Positions 11,750 to 24,409 of a stretch of 64,000 nt of DNA are shown piece by piece. The stretch is from Maribacter sp. HTCC2170. Its GTDB lineage: Bacteria > Bacteroidota > Bacteroidia > Flavobacteriales > Flavobacteriaceae. Location of the stretch: assembly GCF_000153165.2 (NCBI RefSeq), contig NC_014472.1:1299501-1363500 (forward strand). The letters are read 5' to 3'. The notes beneath the pieces are model-generated. The model was not told the origin of the DNA, made no database searches, and was given only the letters and a program-made list of their open reading frames with translations. Each line of letters begins with the position of its first letter. The first letter of the stretch is position 1. A program made the translations under genes and the position numbers.

Positions 11750-14700
11750 CTATTTAAAATTATATGTCAGCCCTAACTGAAATACATTAGAATAAAAATT
11801 ATCTATGGTATAAAATTCATAGGCTGCCTTTATCGTGGTAAAATCCATTATTCTAAAGGCAAGGTTTCCTGTATATCTTTCAAAAGTTGTGTTATTATTC
11901 TCAGCAAATATTGACGCATCTGCAACAAAATGAAAACCACCATTTTCTTTTCCAAGGGTCATTACAAGCCCACCACCACCGTAAAGACGCTTATCCGCCA
12001 TCCAGTAGGGAAACCCGTCTCTACGATCGACAGTCCCTAAAGTATAGGCCCCCTCAATTAGCGGAGACATATCAAAACCATCATTATTGATTATGGAATA
12101 CTCTATTCTACCCAATAAAGTACCATCAATTTCTTCATCGGAATAGTAATTACTTTCAAGAGAAAAAATCTGTCTTAAATCATCGGTTATTTTAAATTCA
12201 TTATAACTTGCCAATTGAGTTCTATAAATATCCAAAACATGACCTGGGCCATTCCGAACAGGAAAAAAATCAAATGCAAGAGAATTAAAGTTACTTTTTC
12301 CTACCCTATTTACCCCAGCGCCAACTTGATAATACACTTTACTCTCATTGTCTCTTTCTATTCTAGCCCTACCGTTAAAACCAAATTTCTTAGTTGAAGT
12401 TGTTTTAAAACCATATTCAAACCCAAACAATTCTCTTCGTAGATTATCTGAAGTTGGTAAATCGTAGTTAATAGGATACATAATGCTTTGGGTTCCTGAA
12501 ACGCTATGAACATTATAATTTTCATCATACATGTTATAGCTCAGTACATTAGAAATTGTATTTGGTTCTAATTTATCGTTAATGGCATAACTGTTAGTAC
12601 TGACCGAATTGCCCTCGGCCATGCGAATACTTTTGGACATGTCTTTACGAACACCAGAGTATATAATCTTATTGTACTTTCCAAGCATTTCTTTTTTGTC
12701 CGCAAAGCTCAAAGACATTATTTCTTTGTTCAACTCTCTTTTTAGCGTTGAATTTTCAACATCTGAAGGAAGACTCGCGGCTATCTGTGCAGATCTTTTT
12801 ATATCGCCTTCGTACAACATCAATGTTCCCATTAGCAACATAACCTCATAATCCTCTGGATTTTCAGCTATATGAGTATTATAAAGCTGCCTTAGTCTAT
12901 GATATTCTTTAAGTTCATAAAGCCAACCTAACCTCGTAGTGACAGGAATTTTATTGGTGCATTTGGACCAAGAAAGTGCCTCTCGATATAATTTAAAGTT
13001 TGCATATGCGTAAGCAATCTGTGATGCTTTTAATTTTAATTTATTGTCACACGACTCGTATTTCTGAATTTCGGTTAAGGCTTTCTTCTCATCATTGGCC
13101 AAAATCACATCTAAATAATATGAATAATCTGTTTCCTTCAGCTTATCGAATGAATCTGATTTTATCAACCAATCATTGACTGTCTCTTTTTCGATTTCTG
13201 AGCTGCATTCTTGCCATTCGAGAGCCCTATCATATCTAAAACGGTGAGCATATGCCCAAGAAATCGCTGTAGCCATTTCTTTATAATCTTCATCGCAAGG
13301 CTTAATTTTATTCAATTCTTTAATGACAGAATCAAAATCATAATCAATCAAATGTCTTAAGTACTTTTTTATATTTTTTGGCGATGGGTGGTGTTCTTTT
13401 AACCTTTTCAAGGCCCTTGCAACTTGATCCTTATACTCTTCTACATTAAAATAATCAACATATTCTCTAAGAACATCTAAATCTTTTGTACCCCAATTTA
13501 TTTGTCTTTTAAGCCATCTTTCTCTTATTTTTTTCAAAGGATAAGCGGTCTGATATGATATTCTCCTTGAAATTTCGGATAGTTTAATCGATTGATTTTT
13601 CTGATAGACCCTTTCAAGTATTGGCCAAATCTCGGACCCTCTTTTTTGCCAGGTCATATATTTGGCAAAATCACTCCATTGATCTCCTGAAAGGTTAACA
13701 CCTTCATTTATTCTTTGCTCTAGTAAATTTGTTGCCGATTCTAATTCATTGTTACTTACATAGTGCTCTACTAATTGCATTAAAGGCATTAAAACCGTTC
13801 TATCATTTTTATAAGTTCTGTAGTCGCTAAAAGTTTTGGCCACAACCTGTTTGTTATTTCTGTCGGCACCTCTTCCTTTATAATATAAATCTGGCAATTT
13901 TAGAAATGGCTCCCTTGATTCTATAGAATACAGATGCCCGTTCAACATTGAGGACTTTTTATATTCAAGGGCCTCTCCATTCAATGTTTGATCAATTAAT
14001 CTTTGATTTTCTGAACTTACATACAAAAACCAATATTGATTTTCTGAACTTGCCGAGCGAAAATCACTTTCCACAATATAATTACCGTCTTCACGAAAAT
14101 GCGTAAAATAAGAATAACGCCAATCGCGAACTATATTCGATGATTCAGTGGCATTCGGATATCTAACCATAGGATGTCTTTTCCTAAAATCTTCAAGGAC
14201 TTTTTTGAAACTATCGAATAGGCCAACTTTTCCATTTCTTGATCGCCAGTTCAATCCATACTTGTTTCTGTATTCAAAATGTCCGCTTGTGGCTGAATTT
14301 GCTTTAATTGGCAACTGAAAAACATCATCTGGATGTACAAAATGTGTCCAAATTCCAGTAAAAAGGTATAGTGATTCTGCTGTCATCAAATTCACATCGT
14401 CCAGATAATAACCACTTGTAATTCTTGGGTAGTCAAAGAAATAATCGTTAAAAGGTTCAGGGTCAAATTCCCGGTTCCCACCTTCTTTAAGGTCTCCCAA
14501 ATAAGTACTTTGAATATATTTTAAACTTGGCATGCCTTTTTCCAGTTCAGCAAGCCCAAGACTATCGATATAATTTGACGGTGGAACGTACGAAATTGGC
14601 AATTTTTTAAAATCCAAAGTTTTCCATTTCTTGATCCCTGCGTTCAAAGAAGTTCCAATATATTCAGGTTCTGGCCAGTCAGATTTTAACAAGGAAACAT

Positions 14701-15757
14701 GGTTGTAGCCATGAAAACCAAGTTCATGCCCACTTCTAATAATGTCCTGACCCAACCAACTACTTTTCTGGATAACTTTGTCGCCCCTGTTGAATGCATT
14801 ATTATCCCATTCTTTAAAAGTAAAGGGAGGGGTTGTATAGGTGTTATAATCAAATGTGACGTAGGCAGTATATTTTATACTCTCCCTTATAGCTAGTTTT
14901 TTCATGTCTGGCCACCAAACATCAGTGACATACTCGGACATAGTTTTATTCATTTCACTTTTAATCGGCTCTTTATATACATTGTAAAGTGGAGAAGGAT
15001 AATCATCTAGAAATATTGTTGATGTATTGGCAACAGGATATGGGATACCCTCAAGACCTAAAAGTACTTGTGAAAAAAGTAAGCCTCTCAAATTCTTATT
15101 AAAACTTCTTATCGAATTATACAATACCACCCTACCCTTTCCTATCCTGTTTTCAACAATCAATGGGTAATCCTTATTATTGGCACTGGATGCCAAGACA
15201 TTAACATTGCTTGAAAAATTTACACTCTTGAATCCTCTATGGGGAATTTTATCAGAACTTAATGAAAAGCCTGCCATGTCTGGAAAAATAGGCTTCTTAA
15301 AACGAATTCCCATTGCGGTACTATCCAATTCATAACTGGCCTCACTTTTAAAACCCATTAAAAACCCAAGCCTCTGGTCATAATTCTTCTTTGTAATAAA
15401 CAAGGTACCTCCCTTGGCAACAAAACCCAGAAGTGAATCAATTGCAGTGTTATTCAACTCATACGTTTCAGTAACACATAGTACTCTTGTGGTGGGCTCA
15501 ATTTTGAAAGAGGCATTGAAATTTAAGATTGGAATACTTTGATATGGAATCTTAGTATAATCAGCCACTTTTTTTAAATTCCTATGTTCTAAAACATTCT
15601 CATAGCTTGAATTGTCCATAACAAACTCAATTAATGGAGGTTCTTTACTAACCTCAGGCATGCTGAATTCACCTGAAAACTTGTATATATCACGTTGGCA
15701 TCCTAAAACAAGAATAACCAATAACCCTGTGAATATGCCTTTCTTAAGATTTCTCAT
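11750..15757 (-). CDS. Pel-like fusion lipoprotein: PelA-type deacetylase + TPR + outer-membrane beta-barrel (PelB-like)
   Basis: This 1335-residue product begins with a lipoprotein signal (LLVILVLGC, Cys20). Residues about 40-240 form an alpha/beta amidotransferase-like domain. About 245-620 is a DUF2194/polysaccharide-deacetylase-like region with the metal-binding pair FLDDYP (Asp251/Asp252) and the H-x3-H motif in GFHGYNH (His349, His353). About 680-1060 is helical, TPR-like repeat sequence. About 1095-1335 is alternating beta structure ending LGLTYNFK, as in an outer-membrane barrel. In Proteobacteria the deacetylase is part of PelA, and the TPR plus barrel is PelB. The ATG overlaps the upstream stop by 4 bases. 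Deacetylation plus export of a Pel-like polymer is inferred from family and context. Confidence 0.75.
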   Translation of the reverse strand: MRNLKKGIFTGLLVILVLGCQRDIYKFSGEFSMPEVSKEPPLIEFVMDNSSYENVLEHRNLKKVADYTKIPYQSIPILNFNASFKIEPTTRVLCVTETYELNNTAIDSLLGFVAKGGTLFITKKNYDQRLGFLMGFKSEASYELDSTAMGIRFKKPIFPDMAGFSLSSDKIPHRGFKSVNFSSNVNVLASSANNKDYPLIVENRIGKGRVVLYNSIRSFNKNLRGLLFSQVLLGLEGIPYPVANTSTIFLDDYPSPLYNVYKEPIKSEMNKTMSEYVTDVWWPDMKKLAIRESIKYTAYVTFDYNTYTTPPFTFKEWDNNAFNRGDKVIQKSSWLGQDIIRSGHELGFHGYNHVSLLKSDWPEPEYIGTSLNAGIKKWKTLDFKKLPISYVPPSNYIDSLGLAELEKGMPSLKYIQSTYLGDLKEGGNREFDPEPFNDYFFDYPRITSGYYLDDVNLMTAESLYLFTGIWTHFVHPDDVFQLPIKANSATSGHFEYRNKYGLNWRSRNGKVGLFDSFKKVLEDFRKRHPMVRYPNATESSNIVRDWRYSYFTHFREDGNYIVESDFRSASSENQYWFLYVSSENQRLIDQTLNGEALEYKKSSMLNGHLYSIESREPFLKLPDLYYKGRGADRNNKQVVAKTFSDYRTYKNDRTVLMPLMQLVEHYVSNNELESATNLLEQRINEGVNLSGDQWSDFAKYMTWQKRGSEIWPILERVYQKNQSIKLSEISRRISYQTAYPLKKIRERWLKRQINWGTKDLDVLREYVDYFNVEEYKDQVARALKRLKEHHPSPKNIKKYLRHLIDYDFDSVIKELNKIKPCDEDYKEMATAISWAYAHRFRYDRALEWQECSSEIEKETVNDWLIKSDSFDKLKETDYSYYLDVILANDEKKALTEIQKYESCDNKLKLKASQIAYAYANFKLYREALSWSKCTNKIPVTTRLGWLYELKEYHRLRQLYNTHIAENPEDYEVMLLMGTLMLYEGDIKRSAQIAASLPSDVENSTLKRELNKEIMSLSFADKKEMLGKYNKIIYSGVRKDMSKSIRMAEGNSVSTNSYAINDKLEPNTISNVLSYNMYDENYNVHSVSGTQSIMYPINYDLPTSDNLRRELFGFEYGFKTTSTKKFGFNGRARIERDNESKVYYQVGAGVNRVGKSNFNSLAFDFFPVRNGPGHVLDIYRTQLASYNEFKITDDLRQIFSLESNYYSDEEIDGTLLGRIEYSIINNDGFDMSPLIEGAYTLGTVDRRDGFPYWMADKRLYGGGGLVMTLGKENGGFHFVADASIFAENNNTTFERYTGNLAFRIMDFTTIKAAYEFYTIDNFYSNVFQLGLTYNFK

Positions 15758-17736
15758 AAATTGAATATCAAATCATCGAGTTTAGAGGATTTTTTCCTAT
15801 TCACTATTTCGTAAACGGTTAAGTAATCGTCATCAAAGAAAATTTTGATGTTTCGACCTCTTCTTCTCAATATTCTTATTTGGGACAATAATTGTTCTGA
15901 CACCTCTTTTGAAGTTGACAAATTATATTTTGTTTCTAGAGGTTCATTTTTGGTAATGAACACGAAAACACTGTTTGGTAGTATATAATCAGAGTTCTGG
16001 TTTAGAAACTCAGCATTGGTTTTGTTCGCATTAAAAACTGAGTCCCTTTGTACATATTTATCAATAAAAGCAGGGTAATTGATAAAATGATGTTCATTGC
16101 TACTCATATTTTGACCATAACGCTGATTTACCACGGCATAGGAATAAGGCAAATAATCACTTGATAGGGTATGATATACCTCTATAACATCTGTTTTTAG
16201 TTGATTACCATAATGCGGCGAATCAAATTTTAAAAACCCATTCATTGCGAAAGAAGAATAGAGTGCAACAATCAATACAACAGCTAAGCTAATCAACCTC
16301 AAAGCTGGTCTTTTAGGAATTGATATTTTGGAATAGTACTGAAGGCAACCAACAAATAAGCCCACTTGAATTACTATAATCACTGAAAGTGCTTGAAAGA
16401 AAAGGTCCTTATCCAACCACGTTAAATTCAATTTCTTTAAAAGGATGAAAATTGAAACAAAAACTGAAAAGATAAAGGCAGGTGTCCATTTTGCCCTGTT
16501 CTTAAAATATAAGGGCAAAATCGCCAAAAGAGTAATAAATCCAAAAACAAGGTAAATTAGCAATAAATGATCTATCGGAAATATCAGTTGTGGAAAATGC
16601 GTGTATGACTCAACTAGAATCATATTTGACCGTAAGAATGATTGAAATGAAATGTCGTTCAGGTAGCAACCAACAGCATGAAGTGTCAAGGTCAAACCAA
16701 TTCCCAAAGCATAGGCAAAAACACTCCTCAAAGTATAAGGTAAAGTCTTCTTCGTAAAAAAAACAAGCGATAGAAGTAAAAAGAGGGGCAATACAACAAA
16801 AGCAACAAAAAAATTGATGAAGGTAATTGCAGAAAACATAGTTATCATTATAAAAATGTAATTTCTTTTTGAAACATGCAATAACTTGGGAATAACCGTG
16901 AACATCATGGCTGGCAATGCAAAAATCAATGCCAGGTACAAAGAATTATGCTCCAATAGGAGATTAATATTGATAGGTAGGAACCTGTAGAAAAAAGCAA
17001 AAAACAATACGGACAATATTGGAGCAAAGAACTTAGATTTTGATACCTTAACCAGAATCCAGTAAATTACTAACCCCAAAGCAAAATTTTCAATCAGCCC
17101 AAAGGAGTGCATTGCCATTTCTTCACTTAGACCTGTCATTTTTCCATAAAAGCTCATTAAGGCCAGTTCACCCAAAAGATTATTGTCATTAATAAACCAT
17201 ATATTAGAACTGAGTCCCTTAAGAATTTCAAGGTTCTTAGACCACAAACTTGACAAAGTATACATGTCATTTTTCAAAAAGATATAGCGCGATATAAAAA
17301 CAGCCAAAGCGCATATAAATGCCATTGAAAAAACATGGTTTATCTTTTTGGTATGAAATATTTTTAAATTTTTGGCAACAAGTTTCCCAGGACTTAAATT
17401 TTGTTCCATAAGTTTAAAAAAACCAAGCAAAAAGTATCTTCGTTTTTTACGAATCTGCTTTTCAGGATTTTTAAAATGCCTTATCCCTAGATATTTAATG
17501 CCAAGAATTATAAAGAAAATTGCAAGTAAGGAGAAGATGTCATACATATTCAGTTGAATAAGTACAAATATCATTAGCACAACAATGCTACCATAAAAGA
17601 CCAATCGCTTGAGAAGATAGTCAAGGTTATAAGTATTAACCGGTTGTCTAGTCACAATCTGATGCATAAAAAGGACTCCTGCAAATAACAGTAGGATTCT
17701 TAAAGGACCCAATAAAATACTATCAATTAATTGCAT
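15754..17736 (-). CDS. Large polytopic membrane protein of the Pel-like cluster
   Basis: This 660-residue protein has roughly 12-14 hydrophobic helices over residues 1-510. A soluble C-terminal domain of about 150 residues follows (around HHFINYPAFIDKYVQRD to the end, with a basic RRRGRNIKI stretch and an acidic FFDDDYLTVYE). I do not recognise it as PelD or PelE: it has no GAF or GGDEF signature and no TPR. The many-helix body with a terminal soluble domain recalls GT-C-type membrane transferases, but no catalytic motif is certain. It lies 6 bases after the GH114 gene and overlaps the deacetylase/barrel gene by 4 bases, so it is an integral part of the operon. It may take the place of PelD/PelE in the synthase complex. 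Confidence 0.7.
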   Translation of the reverse strand: MQLIDSILLGPLRILLLFAGVLFMHQIVTRQPVNTYNLDYLLKRLVFYGSIVVLMIFVLIQLNMYDIFSLLAIFFIILGIKYLGIRHFKNPEKQIRKKRRYFLLGFFKLMEQNLSPGKLVAKNLKIFHTKKINHVFSMAFICALAVFISRYIFLKNDMYTLSSLWSKNLEILKGLSSNIWFINDNNLLGELALMSFYGKMTGLSEEMAMHSFGLIENFALGLVIYWILVKVSKSKFFAPILSVLFFAFFYRFLPININLLLEHNSLYLALIFALPAMMFTVIPKLLHVSKRNYIFIMITMFSAITFINFFVAFVVLPLFLLLSLVFFTKKTLPYTLRSVFAYALGIGLTLTLHAVGCYLNDISFQSFLRSNMILVESYTHFPQLIFPIDHLLLIYLVFGFITLLAILPLYFKNRAKWTPAFIFSVFVSIFILLKKLNLTWLDKDLFFQALSVIIVIQVGLFVGCLQYYSKISIPKRPALRLISLAVVLIVALYSSFAMNGFLKFDSPHYGNQLKTDVIEVYHTLSSDYLPYSYAVVNQRYGQNMSSNEHHFINYPAFIDKYVQRDSVFNANKTNAEFLNQNSDYILPNSVFVFITKNEPLETKYNLSTSKEVSEQLLSQIRILRRRGRNIKIFFDDDYLTVYEIVNRKKSSKLDDLIFNL

Positions 17737-17742
17737 TTTTAT

Positions 17743-18552
17743 TTATTCAGTGAATTCAGGCTTGGTTTGAAGATCTATATTGGCAATGAAATATCCGAAA
17801 CCAAGTTCTTTTAATTGTGTCTCAATTGTTTTCCTCATAACTTCATTATCAACGTATTCTACAATGATCAAAGGTTTTTTTAAGGATTTTCTGAAGGCCT
17901 TTAGTTCTTTGACGATTTTGGTCCTTTCTTGTTCATATTTATAGCCATACTTTTTATTTTTAAAATCGTAATCTGTAAATACAGATTCGATTACAACAGC
18001 ATCAGTGATGTGCTTCAATTGGTTCGCCACAAACAATCCCGAATTTTGAACTATACATAAGCTTGGGTTTGCTTGCCTTATCCTGCCAATGAGCTTTAAA
18101 AGATTATCTTTTTGCCCTTTAAGCCTTCCCCACTGCGAAGCATTATCAAGGTTATCCAGAAAAAAGCCATCAAGTCCCTTTGATACCAATTCATTTGCTA
18201 TTGTAAGTAATATGTCTTGGGCTTTCTTGTCTGATATATCTATAAAACAACTTCCCCAATTTACATTTTGCCCAAAAGTATACTCCCTTATCTTTTCATA
18301 ATGCGTTGCCGACATGTTAACCTCTGTTACACTTAAATAACCCAACACTTTACTGTTATTGGTCTTGAACAATTCAATCTCTTTTGACGTATAGTGCTGA
18401 GCCTCAAGAACCACGAGTTCATAACCCTGCACCATAGCAGGAGATATCTTACCATAACAAATAAAAAGTTCTTTATCCATTTGAATTTTTTCAGCCATTT
18501 GCGCACTTGTCAAAAACGGCAACACAAAATATATTAGGTTAATAGGCCGCAT
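17743..18552 (-). CDS. GH114-type endo-alpha-1,4-polygalactosaminidase-like protein (PelA hydrolase-domain homologue)
   Basis: The 269-residue product has a weak signal peptide (about residues 1-17) and a TIM-barrel-like GH114 domain. The motif GYLSVTEVN lies at residues 71-79, and the catalytic-type strand GFFLDNLD holds Asp133 and Asp136. A second acidic segment, AVVIESVF, comes further on. In Pseudomonas PelA the N-terminal GH114-type domain cuts galactosamine-rich Pel; here that domain is a separate protein and the deacetylase is in the gene two places downstream. It overlaps the 3' end of pelG by 14 bases. The role is polymer trimming or lysis in the periplasm, inferred from family. Confidence 0.8.
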   Translation of the reverse strand: MRPINLIYFVLPFLTSAQMAEKIQMDKELFICYGKISPAMVQGYELVVLEAQHYTSKEIELFKTNNSKVLGYLSVTEVNMSATHYEKIREYTFGQNVNWGSCFIDISDKKAQDILLTIANELVSKGLDGFFLDNLDNASQWGRLKGQKDNLLKLIGRIRQANPSLCIVQNSGLFVANQLKHITDAVVIESVFTDYDFKNKKYGYKYEQERTKIVKELKAFRKSLKKPLIIVEYVDNEVMRKTIETQLKELGFGYFIANIDLQTKPEFTE

Positions 18553-20146
18553 AATAATAATAGTCTAGATTTTTATAGAATGATTTAATCTCTCTTAAAG
18601 TCAAAGTCATAAAAACAATTGAACCAACCAACATACCAACAACACTGTATTCATAGGCAAATATTCTACTGACAGTAAATCCTACAACAAAGTTCACTAC
18701 ACAAGAAATCATTAACGAACTCAACACTCCATTTGGTTTACTCAACGTAAATAAATAAAGCGCATTCAACATGCCCCAAGTAAGAAATAGATAGCCAATA
18801 CCACCAATTATGCAGACTTTAATACTAAGAACATCAAGGCTTTCATTAAAACTGGCCTCGTACCCCCATGGTTGGGTTATTATCAAATAAATCAAAGTTG
18901 TGGTCACCAATGCTGTAATAACCAATAAAAAAATATGCCCTCTATACATCCTATACATCCTTCTATTAAATTCTTTCCTATTTAAAAAAGGAGTGTTTTT
19001 TTGCTTTATGTCTAAAAATTTGGAGAATGAAGCAATAGCATATTCCAATACACCAGCCAGCATGAAAAAAATAAGGATAGCCAAATCCATACCAATTTCA
19101 TAATCCTTCTCATAGAGAAATACATATTGATGGGTAAGTGTAAAATCGGCTGACCAAGCCAAAATCCTGTCAATAAAAATGAAAATGTAAATTAGGCCGC
19201 CATAGAAGAAATATGGATAATTTCTATAAATTACCATAGACTTACTTGGCGTTACATGAACAGATTCAGTACCAACTCCTTTAACCTTGAAAAACCCCCA
19301 TAAAATTGTTTTAGATAAAAAAATGGCCACCAATACTCCAATCCAATGGGTTAGATATATATGTAAAGAGGAAAACTCTTTTAATGCCAGTGCAAATAAA
19401 GTGGCGATCGAAATAGACAATGTTATTGCCCATCGTTGTCTTATGGTATGAAAAGGAGCTGAAACCAATAAAAGTGTTCCTATAAGCAAAGCATAGGTAA
19501 ACATTACAAGAACAAATGAAAATGGGTAAAGGTTAAAAAAGAAATTGATCATGCCCAATGCCAAAAAGGATAAAAGCATGCCGTTAATTCCTGACTTAAT
19601 CAATTTGTCCATAACCATCCTTGCCTTCGTAAATTCTTCATGGTGCCAATAGAACGAAGCCTGTCTCCCCATTACCTGTACATATCCACCAGAAATAATC
19701 AATCCAAGAATGACTCCAAAAACCACTGAAGTAGATTGAATAATATTAAAACCTACAAAAGTCCAAAGTGAATAACCAAAGAATATAATCGCGGCTACTT
19801 GAAGAAAAATTGGCAGTAAATGAAATAGACCCAAAGGATAAAACTGTGCTAAAAGTTTAGCCTTCATCCAGAGATAACCTGAGACTGGAATTTGGGAATC
19901 ATGCTTTTTTCGTTTTTTGAGCTCATTTATATTGACCAATGTTTCAATCGGTCTAGAAAGCAAATCCTCATAAATATGTATTGCCAAATCCATTATGGAT
20001 ACGAATCCATAATCTTTAAAAACATCTTTTTCCCTGATTCCAAATGACTCAAGCGTAGCCAAAACAACCATAGCACTAACAGGGTTTCCAGATTTTTGGA
20101 TAACCTCAGTGGTGGTTTTTTCTAAATTTTGTTGAATATGGTTCAT
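18539..20146 (-). CDS. pelG: PelG-like exopolysaccharide transporter (Wzx/MVF-type flippase)
   Basis: This 535-residue polytopic protein has about 12 helices after a roughly 95-residue soluble N-terminal extension. The segment YIFIFIDRILAWSAD in the middle and the tyrosine-rich end LDYYYYAAY are typical of PelG, the polysaccharide-transporter-superfamily component that moves Pel across the inner membrane together with PelF, PelD and PelE. It lies 35 bases after pelF on the same strand and overlaps the following GH114 gene. The family call is strong because pelF is adjacent. The soluble N-terminal extension is longer than expected for a plain flippase. Confidence 0.85.
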   Translation of the reverse strand: MNHIQQNLEKTTTEVIQKSGNPVSAMVVLATLESFGIREKDVFKDYGFVSIMDLAIHIYEDLLSRPIETLVNINELKKRKKHDSQIPVSGYLWMKAKLLAQFYPLGLFHLLPIFLQVAAIIFFGYSLWTFVGFNIIQSTSVVFGVILGLIISGGYVQVMGRQASFYWHHEEFTKARMVMDKLIKSGINGMLLSFLALGMINFFFNLYPFSFVLVMFTYALLIGTLLLVSAPFHTIRQRWAITLSISIATLFALALKEFSSLHIYLTHWIGVLVAIFLSKTILWGFFKVKGVGTESVHVTPSKSMVIYRNYPYFFYGGLIYIFIFIDRILAWSADFTLTHQYVFLYEKDYEIGMDLAILIFFMLAGVLEYAIASFSKFLDIKQKNTPFLNRKEFNRRMYRMYRGHIFLLVITALVTTTLIYLIITQPWGYEASFNESLDVLSIKVCIIGGIGYLFLTWGMLNALYLFTLSKPNGVLSSLMISCVVNFVVGFTVSRIFAYEYSVVGMLVGSIVFMTLTLREIKSFYKNLDYYYYAAY

Positions 20147-20181
20147 GTAGGGAGAACTTGACCAATATTATATGGTTGGTT

Positions 20182-21690
20182 TTAAGCAATTTTTTGGCTA
20201 ATCACGGTGTTTTTTATTCTTAAATTTTCATATGTTTTCTCAAATTCGGAAACGAAGTTCTCTATAGTAAAATTCTCAACAACCTTCTTTCTAGCATTTT
20301 CACCCATCCATTTTTTTAGTTTTTCATTCTTTAGAAGTGATATGACACGCTCCCCTATTTCATCATGATCCTTAGGTTTACAAATGAATCCACATTTCTC
20401 ATCCAATGCTTCCGACACGCCACCCACATCTGTCGCCACAACAGGAATCGCACAACTCATTGACTCAATAACGGTATAAGGGAATCCCTCAGAGATTGAA
20501 GTAAGAATCGAAACATCACCTTCTGCATAAATTAATTCCGGATTATTATGAAATCCCATTAAATAAAAGTTGTCCTCCAATTGCAGGTATTTAACCAATG
20601 CCTCGCATTCTTTAGTATATTCGGGAACAGCATCTTTATTGCCATAGACAAAGAACTTTACGTTTGGCACCTTCTTCTTAACGACCTTACAGGTTCTTAT
20701 CATTGTAAGTATGTCTTTTAAATCAAAAATCCTCGCCGCGGCAACAACCGTTGGTGTATTTTTTAAATGCTCAGGTTTAGGCCTTGGTTTAAAAAATGAA
20801 TCATCCACGCCATTATAAATAACATCTATATTGGAAACATTCGCACCATAAAACTTCTCCCAAGAAATATTGAATTTACTAACTGTGGTGATTTTATCTG
20901 CGTAATGATATACTAATCTCGTTATGCACTCCGAGAAGTTTATCAGCATCTTCTTTAAAAAGTATGAATAATCAGCAGAGCTGATTGCAATTATTCTTTC
21001 CCTAATAAAAACTCCATGTTCAGTTGCCAGTATCGGAGTATTATACTTGTATTTTAACGATAAGGCCGGGAGGACCGCGATACCTGAAATAGTTACATGG
21101 GAAATGTCCACTTTAGGGACATCTATAGCAATTGGGATTAGAAAACGATAAATCCATCTCATTGCTATGGTAACATCTTCCAAAGAAACTTTTTCGAGTT
21201 CTTCCTCAGGTACTACCAATTGCAATGTTTCACAAAAGGTATTCCATACAGCCTTGCTGGTCATAGCGGTTTTGTAATCATACTTTTGAAAAAATTGCCA
21301 CATCTTGTAAAAGCAGGTACTCAAAACTTTTAACGAGATTTCCTCTGAATATATCTCGGCAATGAATTTTTTAAAATGAGGTATAAATAATGTTGATGTA
21401 ATTTCTTCTGTGGTGAATTCCCTGGATTTTAGAATATCAGAATACTTGATATCATAATCAACACAATCGAGAGGCTCTTCAGGTGACCACATAGGAACTT
21501 GAATTATCTTTTTGATATTCGTCCCTATGGGGTATCTTGCCTTATGTTCAACTCCTGAATTAATAGAATAGATTGTAAAATCAACATTGGAAACTTTTGT
21601 ACATAAATCATGTGCCCACGTAGATACTCCTCCAAAATTATATGGATATGTGCCTTCAGAAATAAGTAATACTTGTAATTTTTTTTCCAA
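20182..21690 (-). CDS. pelF: PelF-like GT4-family glycosyltransferase
   Basis: This 502-residue cytosolic glycosyltransferase has the PelF N-terminal DUF3492 signature (ISEGTYPYNFGGVSTWAHDL) and a C-terminal GT4 nucleotide-sugar domain (VVAAARIFDLKD, then SEGFPYTVIESMSCAIPVVA with the E-x7-E motif). PelF polymerises a UDP-activated N-acetylhexosamine, UDP-GalNAc/GlcNAc in Pseudomonas. Length matches PelF (about 500). The start is TTG; an in-frame stop lies 15 bases upstream and no ATG precedes the family's conserved beginning. It is the second gene of the minus-strand cluster, before pelG. Confidence 0.9.
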   Translation of the reverse strand: MEKKLQVLLISEGTYPYNFGGVSTWAHDLCTKVSNVDFTIYSINSGVEHKARYPIGTNIKKIIQVPMWSPEEPLDCVDYDIKYSDILKSREFTTEEITSTLFIPHFKKFIAEIYSEEISLKVLSTCFYKMWQFFQKYDYKTAMTSKAVWNTFCETLQLVVPEEELEKVSLEDVTIAMRWIYRFLIPIAIDVPKVDISHVTISGIAVLPALSLKYKYNTPILATEHGVFIRERIIAISSADYSYFLKKMLINFSECITRLVYHYADKITTVSKFNISWEKFYGANVSNIDVIYNGVDDSFFKPRPKPEHLKNTPTVVAAARIFDLKDILTMIRTCKVVKKKVPNVKFFVYGNKDAVPEYTKECEALVKYLQLEDNFYLMGFHNNPELIYAEGDVSILTSISEGFPYTVIESMSCAIPVVATDVGGVSEALDEKCGFICKPKDHDEIGERVISLLKNEKLKKWMGENARKKVVENFTIENFVSEFEKTYENLRIKNTVISQKIA

Positions 21691-21850
21691 TAAAGTAGTC
21701 TTTTCCTATTGCCTGACAATTAAATATCAAACACAAAAAAAACACATTGTATTTAAATGTTAATTTTTATTGGTTAAATAAGTGCATTTAATCTATGAAG
21801 TGTTATTATACCCAACTCTTGAGCCATTCATCAATACTATGTAAGTATAA

Positions 21851-22846
21851 TCAACGATTCTCATAATATTCAAAACCATCTATGATATCAAGGTAGACCC
21901 CATCGAAATCGGAAGCCAATATTTTGTCCAAGTAAGACTCTTCGCTACCTATGATTAATTTTTGCCAATTTGTGTCCCAATATTTCACTTTATAATTTCC
22001 TGCCCAATTCTTATTTTCCTCATCTAACCAAGTTGGTTTGTTTGTTTTCCAATCAGCATCCCAATAATATCTATAATCCTCGGCCTCGCCAATGGACATA
22101 TAACAGATTACCTGCCTTTTACCTCCATTTGCCTTGATTTTTAGGAGATTAATATCTTCAGCGCTAAAAACATAACCATCATTGGCAAAAAGATCTATGA
22201 TAAGGGCATCATGATTACTTTTTGAAAGTCCCTTCATCAAGGAAATTTTCGTTGGATAGTTTTCATAATTCAAAAAAAACAAGAAATTCTTGGCAGCATC
22301 AATTCTTAGAACATCATTACTGTTTTCAGCTCCACATGGTTGAGGTAAATTGGGTATGTTAGTAAGGTCTCTTTCTGTCGCAGCAAACGGTATAAAACGC
22401 ATTTCCGAGTTCTTTCGATAGGAATTCTTAATTTTTTTCTTAGAATCACAATAGTCAGTAATTAAGATAGAGTTCCCAGCATTCTGAGAAACTTTTAATA
22501 ATTCAACTAAATAAGAACTTGTTTTTTTTGAGGTCGATTTGTTATCGCCATTATAACCATAAAATAGATTTTCTTGACCATTTGCATCAATTGCTTCGAG
22601 ATAAGGCAAATTAGGGTTGCCACCTGGTAAGCCACTATCGGTGACCAACTCTATACCATTTTGTGGTATTACAGAAAATCCTGATTTCTTGGACTTGGCG
22701 TAGGTGCTGATATCAATCACAAAATCACGCATGTCTTTTCGGTAGTCACGATTTGCGGAAATCGAATCGGAAACTTGTGTTGAAGAACTGTTATTACAAT
22801 TTAAAAAGAACAATAAAACAAATAATCCATGTTTTAGAAACTCCAT
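21851..22846 (-). CDS. GH114-type lipoprotein (endo-alpha-1,4-polygalactosaminidase-like)
   Basis: This 331-residue protein has an apparent lipoprotein signal (LLFFLNCNNSSS, Cys near residue 17). Its domain has the two hallmarks of the TM1410/GH114 family: CYMSIGEAEDYRYYW and the acidic strand DFDGVYLDIIDGFEYY, which ends almost at the C-terminus. It differs enough from the GH114 protein at 17743-18552 to be a separate paralogue. It is upstream of pelF, 160 bases away, on the same strand, and is probably the first gene of the Pel-like cluster. It may act on the same amino-sugar polymer at the cell surface; this is inferred from family and position. Confidence 0.8.
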   Translation of the reverse strand: MEFLKHGLFVLLFFLNCNNSSSTQVSDSISANRDYRKDMRDFVIDISTYAKSKKSGFSVIPQNGIELVTDSGLPGGNPNLPYLEAIDANGQENLFYGYNGDNKSTSKKTSSYLVELLKVSQNAGNSILITDYCDSKKKIKNSYRKNSEMRFIPFAATERDLTNIPNLPQPCGAENSNDVLRIDAAKNFLFFLNYENYPTKISLMKGLSKSNHDALIIDLFANDGYVFSAEDINLLKIKANGGKRQVICYMSIGEAEDYRYYWDADWKTNKPTWLDEENKNWAGNYKVKYWDTNWQKLIIGSEESYLDKILASDFDGVYLDIIDGFEYYENR

Positions 22847-22928: not shown

Positions 22929-23750
22929 TCACCCTAAACCAACATCTAGAGTCATCATAATTATAAACCCGCCAATGAATCCTAAGGTTGCAATATCAGT
23001 ATACTTATCTTGCTGCGTTTCCGGTATTACCTCTTCAACTACGACAAAAATCATGGCTCCTGCTGCAAATGAAAGCGCATATGGCAATATTGGTTCAAAT
23101 GTCATTACTGCCCATGCTCCTAATACTGCAGCAAAAGGTTCAACTATTGCCGAGGCCTGACCAAACATAAAACTTTTTGTTCTGGAAAGGCCCTGTCGTC
23201 TTAGTGGCATTGCCACTGCAAATCCCTCAGGAAAGTTTTGTAGACCAATTCCCAATGCTAGGGCCACTGCTCCTCCAATACTCGCGCCATCAAAACCGGC
23301 GGCAACTCCACCAAAAAGTACTCCAACCGCTAATCCTTCAGGTATGTTGTGCAAGGTAATGGCCAATGTTAAAAGGGTAGTCCTATGCCAAGGTGTTTTA
23401 ATACCTTCTTTTTCACTTTCTTTAAAATTAATATGTAAATGTGGTAAAACCTTATCCAAACCAAATAAGAACAAAGCTCCCAGAGAAAAACCTACAGCTG
23501 CTGGAATCACCTTCACGAATCCTTCTCCTGGGCTCATTTCTATTCCTGGGGCTAAAAGACTCCAAAAACTCGCCGCTACCATAACCCCTCCTGTAAAACC
23601 CAACATACCGTCCAAAACTGCTCGGTTCATTCCTTTAAAGAAAAACACTAGCGCTGCCCCTGCAGCAGTTAATCCCCATGTGAAAATAGTCGCGTATAAA
23701 GCCGCTAAAATAGGATTGATCGATTCAAAATAATCTATTATTTCTTGCAT
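22929..23750 (-). CDS. ZIP family divalent metal transporter
   Basis: This 273-residue protein has eight predicted helices. The metal-site motifs of ZIP transporters are visible in helices 4 and 5: HNIPEGLAVG and NFPEGFAVAMPLRR. A short histidine-containing loop (LPHLHINFKESEKEG) lies between helices 3 and 4. It imports a divalent metal (Zn, Fe or Mn) across the inner membrane. It follows the DtxR-type regulator gene by 2 bases, so it should be in the same operon and metal-controlled. Confidence 0.93.
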   Translation of the reverse strand: MQEIIDYFESINPILAALYATIFTWGLTAAGAALVFFFKGMNRAVLDGMLGFTGGVMVAASFWSLLAPGIEMSPGEGFVKVIPAAVGFSLGALFLFGLDKVLPHLHINFKESEKEGIKTPWHRTTLLTLAITLHNIPEGLAVGVLFGGVAAGFDGASIGGAVALALGIGLQNFPEGFAVAMPLRRQGLSRTKSFMFGQASAIVEPFAAVLGAWAVMTFEPILPYALSFAAGAMIFVVVEEVIPETQQDKYTDIATLGFIGGFIIMMTLDVGLG

Positions 23751-23752
23751 AA

Positions 23753-24409
23753 TTATGGTATTAACTTAACATACAAATTTGATGCTATTTGGTTTGATAT
23801 ATTGATTTCTTTTGACTCAAGGAGAATAGCCACAGAGCCATCAAACTCCTCGCGATCAACAACGCTTATGTTTTTTCCTAAAGCAATATTATGTTTATCT
23901 AAATAATTAAGGAATTTTGCTGATGAATCCCGAACACCAATACATGTACCACTTTCACCAATTGCCAAATTACTTAATAACTTTTTTTTCTGAATTATTA
24001 GTTCCCCTTCTTTTGTAGGAATTGGATCCCCATGGGGATCATACTTTGGAAATTTCAACAATTGATCTAACCCATCGATCAATTTCTCACTTTTTATATG
24101 CTCCAATTGCTCAGCAACTTCATGTACCTCATCCCAGGTAAAACCTAATTTCTCCACTAGAAAAACCTCCCAAAGACGGTGCTTGCGTACAAGATTTAAG
24201 GCAGTAACGACTCCTGCCTCTGTAAGGGTAACGCCTTTATATTTTTTATAGTTGACCAACCCTTTGTCCGATAACTTTTGAAGCATATCTGAAACAGAAG
24301 ATGGTTTAGTTTCCATCTTTTTGGCAATCGCATTTGTGCTTACTGAATCCGCTTTTATTTTACCTAAATGATAAATGGCCTTAATGTAATCTTCCTCAGA
24401 TAGGGTCAT
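23753..24409 (-). CDS. DtxR/MntR family metal-dependent transcriptional regulator
   Basis: The 218-residue product has an N-terminal winged helix (residues 1-60, TNAIAKKMETKPSSVSDMLQKL as recognition region). A dimerisation/metal-binding domain follows (HRLWEVFL, WDEVHEVAEQLEHI, DPHGDPIP), then a C-terminal FeoA/SH3-like domain (about 145-218). These are the standard DtxR/IdeR domains. With bound Fe(II) or Mn(II) such proteins repress metal-uptake genes. It is transcribed with the ZIP gene and away from a TonB receptor gene. A 16-bp palindrome between them is the likely operator. Confidence 0.93.
   Translation of the reverse strand: MTLSEEDYIKAIYHLGKIKADSVSTNAIAKKMETKPSSVSDMLQKLSDKGLVNYKKYKGVTLTEAGVVTALNLVRKHRLWEVFLVEKLGFTWDEVHEVAEQLEHIKSEKLIDGLDQLLKFPKYDPHGDPIPTKEGELIIQKKKLLSNLAIGESGTCIGVRDSSAKFLNYLDKHNIALGKNISVVDREEFDGSVAILLESKEINISNQIASNLYVKLIP

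Follow-up and report, generated by a model that had tools for sequence, protein, structure and literature searches.

Pel is a well-studied biofilm polysaccharide of partly deacetylated alpha-1,4-GalNAc; in Pseudomonas, c-di-GMP drives its synthesis by way of PelD. The pelABCDEFG clusters of Pseudomonadota, here represented by Pseudoalteromonas (L046) and Caballeronia (L047), have in common with the Maribacter sp. HTCC2170 cluster described below PelF, PelG, a hydrolase and a deacetylase of the PelA type, and a TPR-barrel exporter. Unlike them, however, the Maribacter cluster has no PelC, PelD or PelE found in our searches, its hydrolase is split off, its deacetylase and exporter appear to be joined, and it has gained a protein of predicted GT-C fold and a putatively permuted GH191-type hydrolase. 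The DUF2194 pel clusters of Fusobacteriota likewise share PelF, PelG and a separate gene for a DUF2194-type deacetylase, and that of Fusobacterium (L044) shares the permuted hydrolase as well, whereas its 621-aa DUF2194 protein lacks the exporter part that is fused to the Maribacter one. The pelDEADAFG clusters of Gram-positive bacteria share PelF and PelG too. Both kinds differ from the Maribacter cluster in that they carry a PelD of the GAF type along with a gene the size of PelE, and a GT-C protein was not found in their records that were searched.

The nearest PelF proteins in a plasmid collection (29-31% identity) belong to clusters of Deinococcus, Thermus and Streptomyces, which also lie on the same side of the PelF tree. 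The Streptomyces plasmid PelG shares an N-terminal extension with the Maribacter PelG, but none of these clusters has a GT-C protein; two Deinococcus clusters and one Streptomyces cluster carry sugar-nucleotide genes. In six such clusters on plasmids of Deinococcus, Streptomyces, Thermus and Kocuria (L042, L043, L045, L093, L094 and L097), a gene labelled 'hypothetical' occupies the place of PelG, and the PelD model PF16963 matched nothing. The main text of two pel surveys from 2020 does not contain the string 'Bacteroid' (PMC7112194, PMC7112168), and no earlier description of a Bacteroidota Pel cluster was recognised among the matches listed from the open-access literature.

Layout and distribution of the cluster

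In the window, i.e., the whole 64,000-nucleotide stretch of Maribacter DNA analysed here, the initial annotation had reported a tight minus-strand run of Pel-like genes, and this run was recovered as six ORFs of 331, 502, 535, 269, 660 and 1335 aa (positions 11750-22846; Table 1). Scans against Pfam and NCBIfam agree with that reading, assigning two GH114-type hydrolases, PelF and a DUF2194 protein and leaving two ORFs without a family. The cluster has a GC content of 0.341, compared to 0.369 in the rest of the window.

Table 1. Positions of the cluster features in the window and of HD_5-region genes in loci from other classes
Feature	Position	Strand	Basis
Predicted fusion of a lipoprotein signal, a DUF2194 deacetylase, a TPR part and an outer-membrane barrel (1335 aa)	11750..15757	-	
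Barrel, residues 1051-1333	11759..12607	-	Strands in model
Residues 632-1335, predicted TPR superhelix with 16-strand barrel	11750..13864	-	Model, Foldseek
DUF2194 deacetylase part, residues 55-601	13955..15595	-	PF09960, 9zau_A
Polytopic protein of predicted GT-C fold (660 aa)	15754..17736	-	Structure model, PDB matches
Secreted GH114-type hydrolase, PelA-hydrolase-like	17743..18552	-	PF03537; D133 and E189
PelG-type inner-membrane protein	18539..20146	-	Relatives match PF16933
PelG N-terminal extension, residues 1-66	19949..20146	-	Search of PelGs
PelF, GT4-type polymer synthase, TTG start	20182..21690	-	NF038011, DUF3492
Lipoprotein-like hydrolase, putative circularly permuted GH191 (TM1410-type) barrel	21851..22846	-	Halves swapped relative to TM1410
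Codons of E92 and D320, catalytic-pair counterparts in the lipoprotein-like hydrolase	22571-22573; 21887-21889	-	
HD_5-region genes of other-class clusters	L084:9587-11167; L079:9684-11315; L075:14962-18538		

With PelG as the query, 38 related loci were collected (one genome per species), which by title belong to Flavobacteriaceae or Flavobacteriales, plus one Roseivirga. Rather than being scattered in these relatives, the core genes pelF-pelG-GH114-membrane protein-DUF2194 keep one order on one strand in all 38 loci, with a 14-base overlap between pelG and the GH114 gene in 32 of them. Since a PelG of this type was found in only 2 of 60 relatives (own genome counted), the distribution of the cluster is patchy. 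An independent search for PelF (E ≤ 1e-30) over 395 Bacteroidota genomes yielded matches in 26, and in the 18 neighbourhoods taken from as many of these genomes, the genes for PelF, PelG, DUF2194 and the membrane protein are all present; the GH114 gene lies between those for PelG and the membrane protein in 17 and upstream in L075, and L083 has a short PelG and a GH114 gene broken into two ORFs. The order expected from the window, without recognisable PelD or PelC, is found in the 38 loci and, L075 aside, in the phylum neighbourhoods.

PelF itself exceeds the PelF-specific cut-off of NF038011 (161.5 bits against 100; 3.5e-47) and matches DUF3492 at 2.6e-71, so that it is not just a generic GT4 enzyme. 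In a tree of 62 PelF rows (midpoint root, long branches), the Bacteroidota form a single group (99/98) on the Thermus, Deinococcus and Streptomyces side, apart from the Pseudomonadota and Fusobacterium rows (100/100). The Roseivirga PelF is nested among those of Flavobacteriaceae (96/87), which points to transfer.

Directly upstream of the cluster, on the same strand (window positions 22929-24409), lie genes for a ZIP-type metal transporter and an MntR/DtxR-type regulator. A tie to the cluster was considered; MntR is near the cluster in 12 and ZIP in 11 of 57 stretches (L003-L041, L075-L092), and both are therefore treated as shared neighbourhood.

Proteins of the cluster

At E ≤ 1, neither Pfam nor NCBIfam has a match for the PelG of the window itself, and its identity is read from its relatives, 31 of 38 of which match the PelG family PF16933 at E ≤ 1 (best 3.1e-13), which sets them apart from generic MVF proteins and upholds the annotated PelG. 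Three canonical PelGs used as phmmer queries found no cluster PelG, although they match each other across phyla, and hhalign against the Pseudoalteromonas PelG gave nothing; a link to a Deinococcus PelG-like protein by hhalign was discarded as too weak (E 0.0029, probability 11%). The N-terminal extension is present in 17 of 18 phylum loci, in Streptomyces (8.5e-7) and, weakly, in Kocuria (0.012), and absent from the Pseudomonadota and Fusobacteriota PelGs searched. The Fusobacterium PelG (L044:10415-12733) has about 310 additional C-terminal residues past the PelG match and is followed by a gene for a small outer-membrane-barrel protein, and next to the cluster of Sediminicola, an ORF of 317 aa (L015:6366-7319) is 25% identical to part of PelG.

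The 660-aa protein, initially described as polytopic, is indeed so and belongs to the conserved core; to this a predicted GT-C fold can be added. The best 16 PDB matches of its model (pLDDT 84.5, pTM 0.84) include oligosaccharyltransferase, DPY19, ArnT, AftD, ALG12 and ALG9, and all 16 are GT-C enzymes or complexes containing one, 8 of them at E ≤ 0.001. Because TM-scores by query length are only 0.27-0.37, all below 0.5, these matches are evidence for the fold class that the protein would share with GT-C glycosyltransferases, to which it has no sequence match: no Pfam family matches more than 1 of 37 members (best E 0.018), and the best E against solved chains is 1.6. The protein is thus predicted to represent a GT-C-like family without a name. 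Of the 395 Bacteroidota genomes, its profile matches precisely the 26 that have PelF, such that in this sample it occurs only together with PelF, and it matches none of 11 PelF-bearing plasmid records from other phyla; Deinococcus (716 aa), Streptomyces (715 aa) and Thermus (696 and 650 aa) proteins were rejected as counterparts (hhalign E 0.3-0.88). D442, P254, Y554 and Y561 are present in 56 of 56 rows. D157, a candidate catalytic residue and presumably the acidic one of the first periplasmic loop, is present in 41 of 56, namely all 41 of the window's clade, and replaced in the 15 other-class rows by N (12), H (2) or S (1). The claim of a catalytic role for D157 across the whole family was accordingly dropped, and a noncatalytic role of the protein is conceivable. 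A second, broken GT-C-like copy with two internal stops lies near the intact gene in one genome (G420:C6:85192-86031).

The 1335-aa protein had been read as a deacetylase/TPR/barrel protein, and the individual parts agree. Its DUF2194 part matches PF09960 (9.6e-75) and, along some 510 residues, the solved structure 9zau_A (E 4.3e-74), a molecule named just 'predicted membrane protein'; the DD motif is present in 57 of 57 rows, and HxxxH and HPDD in 56, the remaining row being a gap. A DUF2194 gene also lies within the Cetobacterium pel cluster, alongside those for a GAF protein, PelF and PelG. The model of the remaining part, residues 632-1335 (pLDDT 89.9, pTM 0.53), shows a TPR superhelix followed by a barrel, in which 16 strands were counted manually with one 3-residue strand omitted, and its top five Foldseek matches in the PDB are polysaccharide exporters, i.e., three BcsC structures, PelBC and 4y25 (PgaA). 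The PelB-type exporter is present by fold only: two PelBs gave no sequence match with this part, nor did they match one another. Cys20 is present in 50 of 57 rows and a loose lipobox pattern in 41. The protein is thus a predicted PelA-type deacetylase fused to a PelB-like exporter. PelA and PelB, reported initially as rearranged, appear to have been re-cut, with both PelA domain types present on separate genes and the deacetylase joined to the exporter. The deacetylase of PelA is described as the founder of family CE21 and as being enhanced by PelB, according to passages of the relevant paper (PMC12022489).

Both hydrolases match PF03537 (2.5e-15 and 3e-16). The secreted one retains D133 and E189 in 39 of 39 sequences; PelA queries match ORFs in 56 and 57 of the 57 stretches, and the best matches listed are of this GH114 family. 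The other, annotated as a GH114 lipoprotein, stands as a PF03537 hydrolase but is better read as a permuted GH191-type enzyme. It scores slightly below the cut-off of TIGR01370 (177.7 against 181.25 bits), and a profile of 22 sequences aligns its residues 201-324 with TM1410 34-152 and 30-155 with TM1410 159-281; the two proteins hence share both barrel halves, in the opposite order, and the linear GH191 order is not kept. Passages of the GH191 paper describe TM1410 as a founding structure, with a putative catalytic pair Asp156/Glu225; it showed no activity itself in that work, while another member cut Pel; 'permut' is absent from its main text (PMC12054363). Counting along the alignment, the TM1410 pair maps to D320 and E92, both present in 25 of 25 rows, and the lipoprotein is, judging from these alignments, a circularly permuted GH191-type hydrolase with both putative catalytic acids. 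A truncated gene was rejected, as the end is similar in 22 of 22 aligned sequences and the 'missing' half sits at the front. The loose lipobox pattern occurs in 16 of 25 rows. The gene was found in at least 24 of the 38 loci, upstream flanks being short in some; it precedes the core on the same strand in 13 and on the opposite strand in 9, and lies downstream in 2. The Fusobacterium relative (L044) has the swapped order, and a Thermus relative the usual one.

PelC, PelD, PelE and c-di-GMP

That PelC, PelD and PelE are not recognisable agrees with our searches. Queries from Pseudoalteromonas, Caballeronia, Cetobacterium and Fusobacterium gave no match in 57 stretches with a total of 4612 ORFs (part of the window, L004-L041 and L075-L092); these queries match each other within but not across phyla, so remote homologues could be missed. 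PF16963 found PelD in none of the 26 PelF-bearing phylum genomes but did so in both control records with an annotated PelD GGDEF, the model being blind to PelD without GGDEF. The family scan found no GAF domain in the six window ORFs, and the intergenic gaps of the core are too small for another gene in the 38 loci.

Neither GGDEF nor PilZ nor HD_5 was detected in the Maribacter genome, with positive controls detected in each case. Among the 62 cluster-bearing genomes, 36 of which are possibly incomplete, GGDEF is absent from 59 and present in three (G070, G074 and G299), which makes GGDEF-made c-di-GMP an unlikely switch. These absences suggest control different from that of canonical Pel. 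Passages of a report on Streptococcus intermedius describe a Pel operon without c-di-GMP binding in which PelD is retained (PMC12345266).

Loci outside the window's class carry additional genes. In 14 of the 18 phylum loci, all from other classes, pelG and GH114 are separated by an ORF of 518-543 aa, and there is a short PelF-like ORF of 389-400 aa upstream. In L084, the one set scanned, the inserted ORF is an HD_5 protein, with a response regulator and a hybrid kinase upstream; the window's core has no such insertion. On inspection by eye, the proteins of L084 and L079 have an altered HD-GYP-like motif and the GAF-HD_5 protein of L075 an intact one. L075 carries a SpoIIE-GAF gene in addition to the GAF-HD_5 gene. 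In the other-class clusters, the HD_5 and GAF genes may occupy the place of PelD control.

A probable Pel-type system and its alternatives

We consider it likely that the cluster encodes a Pel-type system that is complete in itself, has been rebuilt in Bacteroidota and makes a galactosamine-containing polymer. The initial proposal of lineage-specific Pel-type synthesis and export is supported at the level of families, folds and gene order, and the system is classified as a phylum-specific variant, because by its parts it would work like Pel at nearly every step while recognisable PelC, PelD and PelE are lacking. The families, predicted folds, motifs, gene order, co-occurrence and absences within the searches, from which we infer the polymer, the order of steps, the GT-C chemistry and the control, were all computed.

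PelF would polymerise UDP-GalNAc in the cytosol, for which GalE, encoded elsewhere in the genome and above its cut-off, is a possible source. PelG would carry the chain over the inner membrane, its extra N-terminal domain perhaps helping in place of PelD and PelE. At the periplasmic face, the GT-C-fold protein would act on the chain; in the window's clade its most likely role is that of a transferase adding or attaching a lipid-linked sugar. The fused lipoprotein would then deacetylate the chain and hand it along the TPR arm into the barrel, both of which belong to the same protein; with the PelA-PelB contact built in, a PelC ring may be unnecessary. The GH114 enzyme and the permuted GH191-type lipoprotein would cut stray or finished chains. 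This reading draws on PelF above its cut-off, PelG by its relatives, the DUF2194 motifs, an exporter fold of the BcsC/PelB/PgaA type, two galactosaminidase-type hydrolases with kept acids (one PelA-related), the order in 38 of 38 loci and the shared occurrence of the GT-C protein and PelF in 26 of 395 genomes. Against it count the failure of canonical PelGs to reach the cluster PelG, the TM-scores of 0.27-0.37, the missing D157 in other classes, the inactivity of TM1410 and a lipoprotein hydrolase in just 24 of 38 loci. A more specific version, in which an undescribed GT-C family, as an obligate additional part, couples the galactosamine chain with a lipid-linked sugar in the periplasm, yielding a decorated or anchored Pel with a c-di-GMP-free switch and a single deacetylase-TPR-barrel lipoprotein as exporter, is put forward tentatively.

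Slightly less probable than that version is a non-enzymatic role, in which the GT-C-fold protein is a membrane scaffold that replaces PelD and PelE and holds PelF and PelG, the polymer being plain Pel. Its constant company with PelF, the replacement of D157 in 15 of 15 other-class rows and the failure to find PelC, PelD and PelE in the stretches searched are consistent with a scaffold, but within the window's clade D157 is retained in 41 of 41 rows, and D442 across the family in 56 of 56, as might be seen in an enzyme, and contact with PelF is an assumption. We regard it as unlikely that the cluster is Pel-like in parts only and that its PelF and PelG relatives use another sugar for a different exopolysaccharide: the identity of PelF to its counterparts in the plasmid collection does not exceed about 31% and PelG is beyond the reach of canonical queries, yet the core and its neighbour combine three types of galactosamine-polymer enzyme, GH114, GH191-type and PelA-type deacetylase. 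Least probable is a canonical system with PelC, PelD and PelE encoded elsewhere or too divergent, which the phylum-bound queries and a PF16963 model blind to GGDEF-less PelD would allow, but against which stand the 26 genomes without a PF16963 match beside two detected controls, the own genome free of GGDEF, PilZ and HD_5, and the core gaps without space for an extra gene.

What is new in the Pel-type system favoured here is the GT-C-like protein, the deacetylase-exporter fusion, the permuted hydrolase and the absence of recognisable PelC, PelD and PelE and, in most cluster-bearing genomes, of GGDEF. A phylum-wide version of Pel without recognisable PelC, PelD or PelE bears on the question of which parts are dispensable, and the 59 of 62 genomes free of GGDEF provide a natural test of PelF switching. 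The putatively permuted hydrolase and the predicted one-piece deacetylase-exporter are subjects for structure and enzymology, and the strongest new item is a family of predicted GT-C fold, without a name, that accompanies PelF throughout the sample.
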